Source: Burkholderiaceae bacterium (GTDB taxonomy: Bacteria > Pseudomonadota > Gammaproteobacteria > Burkholderiales > Burkholderiaceae_C). From it: DNA of 64,000 bases. Location: positions 1-64,000 of the forward strand of contig SCQQ01000074.1 of NCBI GenBank assembly GCA_004299095.1. The letters run 5' to 3'. Below the pieces are notes generated by a model. The model had not been told where the DNA came from, made no database searches, and worked only from the letters and a program-made list of their open reading frames with translations. Below, piece by piece: positions 40,094-44,760 of this stretch. Both the position numbers and the translations under genes were made by a program. Each line of letters opens with the position of its first letter. The first letter of the stretch is position 1.

Positions 40094-40351
40094 TTACTCG
40101 GCTTCCGCTTCAGGCGCAGGCTCGCCCGCAAGCGCCGCGAAATTCACCGGTCGTCCAGGGACGACCGTCGAGATCGCATGCTTGTAGACCATTTGCGTCA
40201 CGGTATTGCGCAACAGCACGACGTACTGATCGAACGACTCGACCTGTCCCTGGAGCTTGATGCCATTGACCAGATAAATCGACACCGGAATGTGTTCACG
40301 CCGCAGCGTGTTCAAAAACGGGTCTTGTAGAAGCTGCCCTTTGTTGCTCAC
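40094..40351 (-). CDS. hfq: RNA chaperone Hfq
   Basis: 85-residue Sm-like protein that matches small RNAs to their mRNA targets. The sequence from [19 protein letters not shown] through Sm1 ([20 protein letters not shown]) and Sm2 (KHAISTV) is near-canonical, with Q8, D9 and F42/Y25-type RNA-contact residues present. The start is GTG 40351, with GGAG seven bases upstream; no ATG is available. The Glu-rich C-terminal tail (EPAPEAEAE) is short. First gene of hfq-hflX-hflK-hflC, downstream of tRNA-Asn and its terminator. Confidence 0.98.
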
Positions 40352-40617: not shown

Positions 40618-40693
40618 TGGCTCCTCGACCAGGGCTCGAACCTGGGACCCACGGATTAACAGTCCGTTGCTCTACCGACTGAGCTATCGAGGA
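40618..40693 (-). tRNA. tRNA-Asn(GTT)
   Basis: 76 bases including an encoded CCA. The acceptor stem pairs TCCTCGA with TCGAGGA; the D arm (GCTC...GAGC), anticodon arm (ACGGA-CTGTTAA-TCCGT, anticodon GTT), five-base variable loop and T arm (CCAGG-TTCGAGC-CCTGG) all fold cleanly. Discriminator base is G. Confidence 0.98.
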
Positions 40694-40735: not shown

Positions 40736-42217
40736 TCAGCGACCCTCGGACGGCAGCACGGAGACGACCTCCGCGGCAGGATCGAGATCGAACACGGCCA
40801 TGCTTTCCACGTGCGAGGTATGTGGGAACATGTTGACCACGCCCGCGGCCGCGCAGCGGTAGCCGGCGCGATGCACCAGCAACCCCGCATCCCGCGCCAG
40901 CGTGGCCGGGTTGCAGCTTACGTAGACGATGCGCTTGGGCGGCTGCCATGACGAATCGACGGCCGCCGCCACCTCACTGCCCTGCCCGCCTTGCCGCGCG
41001 CGCAAATCGGCCAGTGCCTTGACCAGCGCGAATGCGCCTTCGCGCGGCGGGTCGATCAGCCAGCGGACGGCAGTGCCGTCGCGCAGCAATTGTTCCGGCG
41101 TCATTTCAAACAGATTGCGCACGGCAAACGTGCAGTCGGCCAATGGTTCGCGGCGCCCCGCGACATTCTGGTTAGCTTCGTAGTTCTGACGCGCTCGCGC
41201 CACCAGCGCCGCACTGCCTTCGATCCCGAACACTTCGCCGGCACGCGTGGCCATGGGCAGACTGAAGTTACCGATGCCGCAGAACCAGTCGATCACGCGC
41301 TCCTGGCGCGTGGCTTCCAAAAGGCGCATAGCGCGCGCCACCAACACTCGGTTGATGGCGGCGTTGACCTGAGTGAAATCGGTGGGCCGAAAACGCAGCG
41401 TCACGCCGAATTCGGGCAAGGTGTAGGACAGGCTGTCATCGCCCGGCACCAGCGGATGGGCGCTGTCGGGGCCGCTGGGCTGCAGCCACCAATGCACGTC
41501 GTGCGCGCGGCCGAAATCGAGCAGCTTCTGCCGGTCACCCCCGGATAACGGCTCCAGATGGCGCAGCACCAGCGCCGCCGTGTCCTCGCCGCAGGCCAGC
41601 TCGATTTGCGGACAGGTGTTGCGCGCGTCCATGCTGCCGATCAGCGCGCGCAGCGGCAGCAGCATGGCGCTGACCTTGGCTGGCAGGATGGAGCACTCGC
41701 GCATGTCGGCCACGTAGCGGCTGTTGCGTTCGTGGAAACCCACCAGCACCGTGCCTTTTTTCAGAACATTGCGCACCGACAGGCGCGCGCGCAAGCGGTA
41801 GTTCCACGTTGGGCCATGGATCGGCCGCAGGATCATGTCCGGCTTGACTTTGCCGAGGTGCCAGAGCTGGTCTTCGAGCGCACGCTGCTTCACTGCCACT
41901 TGCGCAGCCGCGTCCAGGTGCTGCAGTGTGCAGCCGCCACAAGCGCCGGCATGCAGGCCAAAGTGCGGGCAGCGCGGCTCGACCCGCTGGCTGGACGCCT
42001 GCCCCAACTCCTCGATGCGCGCGGCTTCCCAGTTGTTTTTCTTGCGGTAGACGTTCGCGGTAACGCACTCGCCCAGCAAGGCGCCTTCGATGAAGACGAC
42101 CTTGCCGTCGGCTCGCCGCGCCACGCCCTTGTCCATGTCCATGGCGGCAACTTGCAGCCATTCCGCACTGGGGCGCGCGGTCGGTGTGTCCGCCGCAAGG
42201 GAATCGTCAGCAGCCAT
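40736..42217 (-). CDS. rlmD: 23S rRNA (uracil-5-)-methyltransferase RlmD
   Basis: Makes m5U1939 in 23S rRNA (E. coli numbering). 493 residues. An N-terminal TRAM-like domain is followed by the iron-sulfur cluster cysteines in [19 protein letters not shown] and DMRECSI, and a SAM-binding domain with [14 protein letters not shown]. The catalytic cysteine lies in [16 protein letters not shown] 42217 starts the family-like region. It follows nlpD by 127 bases, in the position where rpoS would normally separate the two. Confidence 0.95.
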
Positions 42218-42344
42218 GGGGATGGATAGTGTCAACCAACAGGAAATGCACGCCGTTGCAATGCACGACGCATGACCAAGACGGCCTGCCCGCCATCATG
42301 AACGGCACCCGGCCATCAAGCAGGCGCCCAGCTCAAATCACGCC
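42218..42344. other. nlpD-rlmD gap where rpoS is expected
   Basis: 127 bases between the nlpD stop and the rlmD start. In many Burkholderiales this interval contains the ~1-kb rpoS gene. Here no sigma-factor sequence or fragment is visible on either strand. Confidence 0.7.
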
Positions 42345-43148
42345 TCAGCGCGGGGGCAAATAGCTGAGCGGATCGACCGGTTTGCCCGAGCGGCGAACCT
42401 CGAAGTGGAGCTTTACGCGATCAGCGTCGCTGGAGCCCATTTCCGCGATCTTCTGGCCTTTCTTGACTTCCTGGTCCTCTTTCACGAGCAGCTTCTGGTT
42501 GTGCGCATAAGCCGTCAGGAACGTGTCGTTGTGCTTGATGATGACCAGGTTGCCGTAGCCGCGCACGCCCGATCCCACATAGATCACGCGCCCGCCGGCT
42601 GCCGCCACCACCGGTTCGCCCGCCTTGCCGGCAATATCGATGCCTTTGTTGGTCGCGCCGTCGAATTTGGTGATGACCTGGCCTTGCGCCGGCCAGATCA
42701 ACTGGATGCTGCTTGCCGCAGCGCCAGCCACCGGCGCCGGTTCGGGCTGGGATGCCGGCGCTGCAGCGGCCACGCCCGGCGTCGTTTGAACCGCTACCGG
42801 TGCGCCCGTCGGCGCACCACCCTCCGGCGGCACGACGCGCAGCACTTGCCCAACCTCGATCACGTTCGGATTGCTCAGGTTGTTCCAGGCAACGATGTTG
42901 TGCCACGACTGGCCGTTGTTGCTGGCAATCCGGTAGAGCGTATCACCGGGTTGCACCGTGTAATAGCCCGGTTTCCCGGCGTTTTCGGCACCCGGCAGCG
43001 TGGCCGGATTGACTTGGCCCGCGGACGCGGAGCCGACCACGCCACTGTCGCTCACGGGTGCGCGGTGGGTTGACGTGGTGGAACAACCCGCCACCAGCAA
43101 TGCCGCCAAAACGATGCCGAACCCAGTCGTGCGAAGCGAAAACTGCAT
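42345..43148 (-). CDS. nlpD: NlpD-type LysM/M23 lipoprotein
   Basis: 267 residues. A lipoprotein signal peptide ends at LLVAGC (lipidated C22). A LysM peptidoglycan-binding domain covers about 61-107 (YYTVQPGDTLYRIASNN), then a Pro/Ala linker and a C-terminal LytM/M23 domain (about 160-265). That domain has NKGIDIAG where active peptidases have a metal-ligand histidine, as in E. coli NlpD, so it should activate an amidase (AmiC) rather than cut peptidoglycan itself. ATG 43148 is preceded by AGGAAAG. It follows pcm by 26 bases. Confidence 0.93.
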   Translation of the reverse strand: MQFSLRTTGFGIVLAALLVAGCSTTSTHRAPVSDSGVVGSASAGQVNPATLPGAENAGKPGYYTVQPGDTLYRIASNNGQSWHNIVAWNNLSNPNVIEVGQVLRVVPPEGGAPTGAPVAVQTTPGVAAAAPASQPEPAPVAGAAASSIQLIWPAQGQVITKFDGATNKGIDIAGKAGEPVVAAAGGRVIYVGSGVRGYGNLVIIKHNDTFLTAYAHNQKLLVKEDQEVKKGQKIAEMGSSDADRVKLHFEVRRSGKPVDPLSYLPPR

Positions 43149-43174
43149 GAATTCTTTCCTGAGAGAGCCCCTGA

Positions 43175-43990
43175 TCAGGCCTTGCCGGATTTTAAAGGGA
43201 CAAAGTTGACGGTTTCGAGGGCGCGCCGCGCGATTCCAGCACGTGACTTGTCGACCACCATCAGCACCTGTTCCGTGCCGCTCGACACGGGCGCCACGAT
43301 GCGGCCACCATAGGCCAGTTGATCGATCCAGGCTTCCGGCACCTGCTCGCCGCCCGCGGCGGCAATGATGGCGGCATACGGCGCGCCGTCCGGATAGCCC
43401 TTCATGCCGTCGCCAAAGATGAGACGCACGTTGGCCACCCGCAGCGGCCGCAAATTGATGCGGGCGCGCTCATGCAGCGCGCGCAGGCGCTCGATGCTGT
43501 AGACCTCGCTGGCCACCTGCGCCAGCACCAGCGCTTGGTAACCGCAACCGGTGCCGATATCCAGCACGCGGCCAACCCGGCCGGTGGCATCGCGCGGCAA
43601 ACCCCGGATCAGCAACTCGACCATGCGCGCGATCACGCCCGGCTTGGAAATCGTCTGGCCAAGGCCGATCGGCAAGGCCGTGTCTTCGTAGGCCTGCGAC
43701 GCCAGCGCCGTATCGACGAACTGGCGCCGATCCACCGCTCCGAAAGCGCGCAGCACCTGCGCATCCTTGATCCCCTGGACCGCCAGCAGCTCGACCATGC
43801 GCGCCCGCGCCGGGATCGGGTCTTGGTCGATATCGGGCTTGGCGAGGTCGTGGCGCCCGCCGGCGCCCTGCCATTTGGTCGGCACCCCGCTTGCCCGTGC
43901 CGCTGCTTTGCGCGCAGTCACCGGAACAAGCGGCGCACGGCTGGAATTGATGTGCGCCGGGAAATGCGGCCGCTTCGGCGCTTGGGCCAT
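43175..43990 (-). CDS. pcm: Protein-L-isoaspartate O-methyltransferase
   Basis: SAM-dependent repair methyltransferase for isoaspartyl residues in aged proteins. 271 residues: ~60 extra basic N-terminal residues (KRPHFPAHINSSR), then the catalytic fold with VDTALASQAYEDTALPIGLGQTIS (quoted in part), LDIGTGCGYQALVLAQ as SAM motif I, and EVYSIERL. ATG 43990 overlaps the surE stop by one base (TGATG). The longer frame upstream lies inside surE and is discarded. Member of surE-pcm-nlpD. Confidence 0.94.
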   Translation of the reverse strand: MAQAPKRPHFPAHINSSRAPLVPVTARKAAARASGVPTKWQGAGGRHDLAKPDIDQDPIPARARMVELLAVQGIKDAQVLRAFGAVDRRQFVDTALASQAYEDTALPIGLGQTISKPGVIARMVELLIRGLPRDATGRVGRVLDIGTGCGYQALVLAQVASEVYSIERLRALHERARINLRPLRVANVRLIFGDGMKGYPDGAPYAAIIAAAGGEQVPEAWIDQLAYGGRIVAPVSSGTEQVLMVVDKSRAGIARRALETVNFVPLKSGKA

Positions 43991-44760
43991 CAACCCGCCG
44001 CGCTGGTCAGGATGCGGCCGAGTCCCTGCGACCAGTAGGTCAGCGCGCCATGGTCGGTCAAATCGATGGTCAACGGCGTAAGCGCCAGGTGGCCGTTGGC
44101 CGTGGCGTGGAAATCCGTGCCCTCGCTCGCATCCAGCGCCGCGCCGGCGCCGCCAATCCAGTACATGGTCTCGCCGCGCGGGCTTTGCATGGTGATGGCC
44201 TTCTGCGCCGAATGACGGCGCCCCAGTCGGCACACCTTCGGCGGTTTCAACTCGGCTTCGGGCAAATTCGGGATGTTGACGTTGAGCAGCCATGGCTTGC
44301 CCGCTTCCGCCCCGAAAGAGCCGATGCGCCGCACCAGATCCGAACCGACGCGGGCAGCGTCGTCCAGATAGCCCCAGCCTTTTTCCACTTGCGAGAAAGC
44401 GATGGCTGGAATGCCGAACAGATAGCCTTCCATGGCGGCGCCCACGGTGCCGGAATACACCGTGTCGTCGCCCATGTTGGCGCCGTTGTTGATACCGGAA
44501 ACCACCAGATCGGGTTGATACCCGAGCAACCCAGTGAGCGCGATGTGCACGCAATCGGCCGGCGTACCGTTGACATAGCGGAAGCCGTTGGCGGCGCGGC
44601 GCACGTACAGCGGCGAATCGAGCGTGAGCGCGTTGGAGCGCGCGCTGTTGTTGTGCTCCGGCGCGATCACCTCCACCTCGGCGAACGCCGCCAGTGCGTC
44701 ATGCAGCGCCACGATGCCGGGGGCCTGGAAACCGTCGTCGTTGCAAAGGAGGATTTTCAT
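43990..44760 (-). CDS. surE: 5'/3'-nucleotidase SurE
   Basis: Metal-dependent phosphatase of nucleoside monophosphates and short polyphosphates, linked to stationary-phase survival. 256 residues. The divalent-metal site is visible: D8/D9 in [13 protein letters not shown], the serine in [11 protein letters not shown], and the asparagine in [26 protein letters not shown] 44760 follows AGGAGG-like bases and matches the family start [10 protein letters not shown]. It begins the surE-pcm-nlpD run and diverges from the quinone oxidoreductase gene. Confidence 0.96.

Follow-up and report, generated by a model that had tools for sequence, protein, structure and literature searches.

As far as the available excerpts of the literature go, RpoS has been described as lost at the level of whole lineages in the alpha and epsilon classes of the Proteobacteria (Chiang and Schellhorn 2010, cited in PMC7527412). 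Acinetobacter baumannii is without RpoS, and DksA is reported to be a master stress regulator there (PMC10325922); rpoS loss-of-function alleles of Escherichia coli have been proposed to be favored under nutrient scarcity (PMC7527412; PMC2744996). Two further papers refer to RpoS of E. coli or to RpoS generally (PMC10052978; PMC10960890). Within open-licence PMC, which omits most subscription journals, we recognized no report on the distribution of rpoS in the Comamonadaceae, and this is no proof that there is none.

The window (the whole stretch of 64,000 nucleotides analyzed here) carries on its minus strand, by its open reading frames and family searches, the gene order surE, pcm, nlpD, a 127-base spacer, rlmD, tRNA-Asn, and a putative hfq. 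The original prediction was that rpoS is missing between nlpD and rlmD, and this was borne out: the intergenic spacer at 42218 to 42344 is free of genes and of rpoS remnants, and it is the usual rpoS site in the RpoS-bearing relatives that we mapped. Its length of 127 bases presumes that rlmD starts at the ATG at 42217; the alternative TTG at 42235 would make it shorter. Family searches also confirmed the order surE, pcm, nlpD, and then rlmD, with NlpD below the cut-offs. The assignments were surE (5'/3'-nucleotidase; 43990 to 44760, minus strand; NF001489, 364.7 bits, cut-off 295), pcm (protein-L-isoaspartate O-methyltransferase; 43175 to 43990, minus strand; NF001453, 208.5 bits, cut-off 188), and rlmD [23S rRNA (uracil-1939-C5)-methyltransferase; 40736 to 42217, minus strand; NF009639, 582.5 bits, cut-off 458]. 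From gene order and homology, the gene at 42345 to 43148 (minus strand) was assigned to nlpD, its predicted product being a LysM-M23 amidase activator of the NlpD/ActS type that scores under both NCBIfam equivalog cut-offs (213 bits versus 311 for the NlpD model and 218 bits versus 375 for the ActS model). The downstream neighbor of rlmD is tRNA-Asn (40618 to 40693, minus strand), followed by a gene at 40094 to 40351 (minus strand) that, from its translation, we take to be hfq, encoding the RNA chaperone.

A conserved element in the spacer was considered and rejected, since its one terminator-like site is within chance (1.4 expected across 42100 to 43300) and the sole promoter-like site of that interval (0.2 expected) falls outside the spacer. 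Several congeners (L284-L287, L289, L291, and L083) have ahead of rlmD a spacer motif resembling CTATTNAATTGATAGCTGC..GCGCTTG, some with a CAAGCGC partner, that looks like an intergenic repeat element. This repeat occurs in the window at chance level (three matches with three mismatches each, against 1.07 expected; 11 of 100 shuffles did as well).

The original prediction left open whether the gene had been lost or relocated in this lineage. A profile search of the whole genome, a draft of 3.14 Mb in 122 contigs that is 99.54% complete, returned no match over the TIGR02394 cut-off for RpoS (378.7 bits) with all 11 candidates scored, and relocation is thus not supported. The model matched four places, all under the cut-off: RpoD scored 279 bits and RpoH 146.5 bits, and the other two were ECF factors with weak scores. 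Searching with the sigma-70 region 2 domain (PF04542) yielded six proteins, which were RpoD, RpoH, RpoE, and three other ECF-type factors, with no FliA among the six. RpoD, RpoH, RpoE, and two proteins of the NF008888 family passed their NCBIfam cut-offs; the remaining protein, a small ECF factor, passed that of TIGR02937, the model for the ECF superfamily, but of no equivalog shown. The two NF008888 members lie on different contigs of the one genome (G000), at L296:1227-1922 (C50) and L297:1081-1992 (C54). Since no RpoS was found across a 99.5%-complete draft, these searches support the view that rpoS has gone from the genome and has not moved.

The absence extends well beyond this genome. 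RpoS was found in 0 of 29 genomes of the genus (E ≤ 1e-95, all candidates scored), four of which are single-contig assemblies, and in 0 of the 17 with completeness of 90% or more and contamination of 5% or less. We compared rlmD neighborhoods from 140 genomes with 80 titled loci. Within the genus, eight of the nine genomes fetched have nlpD followed by rlmD, 166 to 307 bases apart (measured between ends of homology), without rpoS; in the ninth (G005), nlpD lies outside the fetched stretch. Three of the eight are single-contig assemblies (G011, G014, and G024). It is therefore scarcely credible that the gap between nlpD and rlmD is an assembly artifact, as the draft state of the genome might suggest: the junction lies inside a contig, and congeners that share it within about 310 bases already refute that explanation.

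Outside the genus, rpoS commonly sits at this position, as had been stated: in 51 of the 59 RpoS-bearing genomes mapped, including a genome of an outgroup family (G042), the gene separates nlpD from rlmD. In the other eight, nlpD is absent from the stretch fetched upstream of rlmD, and rpoS is elsewhere as far as the fetched sequence reaches. These eight, the 122 contigs of the draft, and a relative in which a cut or broken rpoS escaped the strict search (G108, below) could all be taken to mean that rpoS is present in our genome but moved, or that it has diverged past recognition. We consider this very improbable, given that the TIGR02394 candidates held nothing beyond RpoD, RpoH, and weak ECF matches, that every PF04542 protein could be named otherwise, and that the genus, with its single-contig genomes, has no RpoS; on the same grounds, a hidden paralogue was rejected.

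Among the 81 genomes counted as RpoS-lacking (G108 included), 38 have nlpD at most 350 bases from rlmD and 12 have more between the two genes; in the remaining 31, the sequence fetched upstream of rlmD does not include nlpD, and the empty site is not visible there. An exonuclease gene stands 3' of rpoS in some loci and directly 3' of nlpD, with rpoS missing, in others, a pattern expected if rpoS alone had been removed. One similarity cluster of reading frames from the gap comprised 21 loci with rpoS and 19 without it (titled loci included), and PF10108 matched both members tested, one with rpoS and one without it. An exonuclease gene of this family (DNA_pol_B_exo2) adjoins rlmD in many loci, whether or not they have rpoS (e.g., L095:5058-5840 and L076:5141-5926). 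At one locus (L188, in G089), the rlmD match is in two pieces with an alignment gap; that genome keeps rpoS.

The genomes of the family intermix on the tree with records titled Acidovorax, Comamonas, Hydrogenophaga, Ramlibacter, Rhodoferax, Variovorax, Rubrivivax, and others, indicating that the family corresponds to the Comamonadaceae and relatives. In an even draw, RpoS was present in 160 of 397 family genomes and 57 of 126 genera, and 69 genera had no drawn genome with a full RpoS; these counts require E ≤ 1e-95 among the best few candidates (up to about five per genome), so that cut or broken rpoS genes escape them. Across the order, again with just the top few candidates of each genome scored, RpoS was present in 126 of 300 genomes and in 68 of 140 genera. 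At least five genera were mixed for RpoS (g34, g42, g107, g108, and g132). Wherever an RpoS-bearing genome was inventoried for sigma-70 proteins, RpoS lay among the sigma matches listed, as judged by eye, and a typical RpoS in the other inventoried genomes should therefore show as well. In the same order, two genomes of family f34 (G451 and G494) and one of family f38 (G498) each had at least seven RpoS-level matches (E ≤ 1e-95; seven candidates scored), and these families may have more copies, an expansion of RpoS instead of a loss.

We also classified 40 sigma-70 candidates from RpoS-lacking family genomes, with nine real RpoS proteins as controls, all nine of which were called RpoS. The candidates comprised 29 RpoH proteins, five RpoE-like proteins, one second RpoD (G097), three long proteins matching MzaA, one protein without a match above 60 bits, and one piece of RpoS (G108). 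The three long sigma-70 proteins (G095, L305:263-3067; G153, L321:188-2905; G174, L325:810-3665; frames of 906 to 952 amino acids) match most of MzaA, a sigma factor belonging to an anti-phage system, at 491 to 518 bits (cut-off 800). The G108 piece, at the end of contig 16 (L303:8-574, minus strand), is N-terminal, has 189 amino acids, and covers profile positions 10 to 120 of 285; either the assembly truncated it there or the gene is decaying. Given this piece, the genera with RpoS may number 58, not 57, of 126; G108 was counted as RpoS absent throughout, except in one parsimony recount.

No credible remnant of rpoS was found in 76 gaps between nlpD and rlmD, the window's included, using a profile of 73 RpoS proteins and tblastn. 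The best scores (profile, 8.1 bits; tblastn, E value = 0.003) were both antisense and both in other loci; a few weaker tblastn matches were in sense (E values of about 0.02 and worse), and none of those listed was in the window's gap. As a control, 113 of 123 pieces of 127 bp taken from 19 real rpoS genes exceeded 10 bits against a profile built without those genes. The site thus holds no pseudogene or remnant that would mark the loss of rpoS, and none is required, as an old clean deletion need not leave one. Within the window's own genus, the spacers are too divergent for a deletion junction to be readable.

Next, we asked how the history of RpoS compares with that of its neighbors. RpoS distances correlated with those of the four flanking genes (Spearman coefficient = 0.86, 67 loci), a value reached in 0 of 999 permutations, and 16 of 20 supported RpoS splits were common to the flank tree, while two conflicted with it and leave some room for transfer. 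In mixed genus g34, the RpoS-less genome G061 keeps, directly behind nlpD, stretches resembling the spacer downstream of rpoS in four congeners (from an unscored alignment, by eye), suggesting that rpoS was once there and was then cut out. With rpoS at its usual site in 51 of 59 genomes, outgroup included, and an RpoS tree largely matching its neighbors, the rpoS-bearing locus looks ancestral, with rpoS repeatedly deleted in the family; on the tree of 146 loci, the nearest tips with rpoS are Variovorax and allies. The same data bear on the converse, that the family ancestor was without rpoS and some lineages gained it by homologous exchange at the nlpD-rlmD site. Drawn genera without RpoS slightly outnumber those with it, and the two tree conflicts would fit such exchange, but the shared site, the broad agreement of the trees, and the spacer that G061 seems to retain all point the other way, and we regard gain as improbable.

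Parsimony gave 22 state changes over 141 tips, compared with an average of 45 for shuffled labels, and these changes do not separate gain from loss. The number was 23 with G108 scored as present, 20 with treekit, and 22 on 146 loci (IQ-TREE), and it rose to 35 when only losses were allowed; it is a rough number because the backbone is weak (support of 0.499 on the larger tree; aLRT of 31 to 41 at three nodes of the 146-locus tree). That the absences are losses, and how many there were, is thus what we infer from these trees and from gene order.

The loss in the window's lineage could be placed on the tree of 146 loci, which is based on four genes, mostly complete, and in which titled loci give the state of the locus only and not that of the genome. 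A clade of the window's genus, two further records, Brachymonas, and G075 comprises 13 tips (aLRT = 100), and rpoS is absent from all of them. One node deeper (23 tips, aLRT = 99.6), the clade also takes in eight tips that have rpoS in its usual position (six titled Variovorax, one titled Proteobacteria, and one other genome) and two without it. On the larger tree, a 21-tip clade (support = 0.998) contains 14 genomes of known state, none with RpoS. This places the window's loss later than the divergence from Variovorax and no later than the divergence from Brachymonas. A loss private to this genome or species did not hold up, as the nearest relatives, the genus, and neighboring genera are likewise without rpoS; loss stood, and an event specific to this lineage proved too narrow a description. 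When the interval between nlpD and rlmD is compared in relatives, the gap is the ancestral state for the genus.

Following from this, the ancestor common to Variovorax and the window's lineage would have had surE-pcm-nlpD-rpoS-rlmD, the order that Variovorax kept, and deletion of rpoS at or before the split between the window's genus and Brachymonas would have left nlpD and rlmD as neighbors, a short spacer apart. Independent losses of rpoS would have recurred in other parts of the family. We hold this account of an ancestral order, an early deletion, and repeated independent losses to be very probable. Loss may have been tolerated or favored because RpoS is dispensable and trades stress resistance against growth, and regulation would then presumably fall to RpoD with ppGpp/DksA, RpoH, RpoE, and other ECF factors.

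We saw no replacement of RpoS by additional sigma factors. With one genome per genus (74 without and 52 with RpoS), the median number of other sigma-70 proteins was 8 in RpoS-lacking and 12 in RpoS-bearing genomes; after genome size was accounted for, RpoS-bearing genomes were still slightly richer in them (t = 2.1), and independent supported pairs leaned the same way (5.7 to 1.0, median P value = 0.125). RpoS-less genomes carry no surplus of other sigma factors, and there is thus no sign of a sigma substitute. Raw median genome sizes were 3.7 Mb without RpoS and 4.8 Mb with it, and 0 of 18 genera below 3 Mb had RpoS; a link between RpoS loss and small genomes was nevertheless rejected, as it vanished over 13 independent supported pairs (3.3 in the same direction and 2.8 in the opposite one). 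DksA occurs in RpoS-bearing bacteria too, E. coli included. In the window's genome, one DksA scored above the cut-off and a further relative scored more weakly, and a role for DksA in stress regulation here is a lead, not a result. Taken as a whole, the data incline us to the view that the Comamonadaceae and allies have undergone some 20 or more losses of RpoS, for the most part as clean deletions at a single conserved site, frequently separating neighboring genera or falling within a genus, and with no sigma compensation.

For this genome alone, the absence of rpoS is an ordinary inherited one, a solid case of ordinary lineage gene loss. The gap is an old and repeated loss, not an oddity of this genome, and an RpoS response is not to be assumed in this family. 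If repeated loss is true, the family would be a replicated natural experiment on life after losing the general stress sigma factor. The matched pairs of RpoS-bearing and RpoS-less relatives that it provides, at least five mixed genera among them, would allow one to follow the former regulon, stationary-phase survival, and the fate of the genome.

Compared with the systems described above, to the extent that the excerpts describe them, the window is one more lineage-level loss of RpoS, inside a family where loss recurs. As in the alpha and epsilon classes, a dispensable general stress sigma factor is missing from a whole lineage; here, however, loss is scattered across a single family, and even among members of a genus, and the site concerned is conserved and can be inspected. 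The window's genome resembles A. baumannii in being an RpoS-less proteobacterium with DksA, but a takeover of stress regulation by DksA is hypothetical here. With the E. coli alleles it shares the proposal that loss is favored under nutrient scarcity, and it differs from them in that the whole gene is missing across genera, whereas in E. coli the alleles are nonfunctional within a species.
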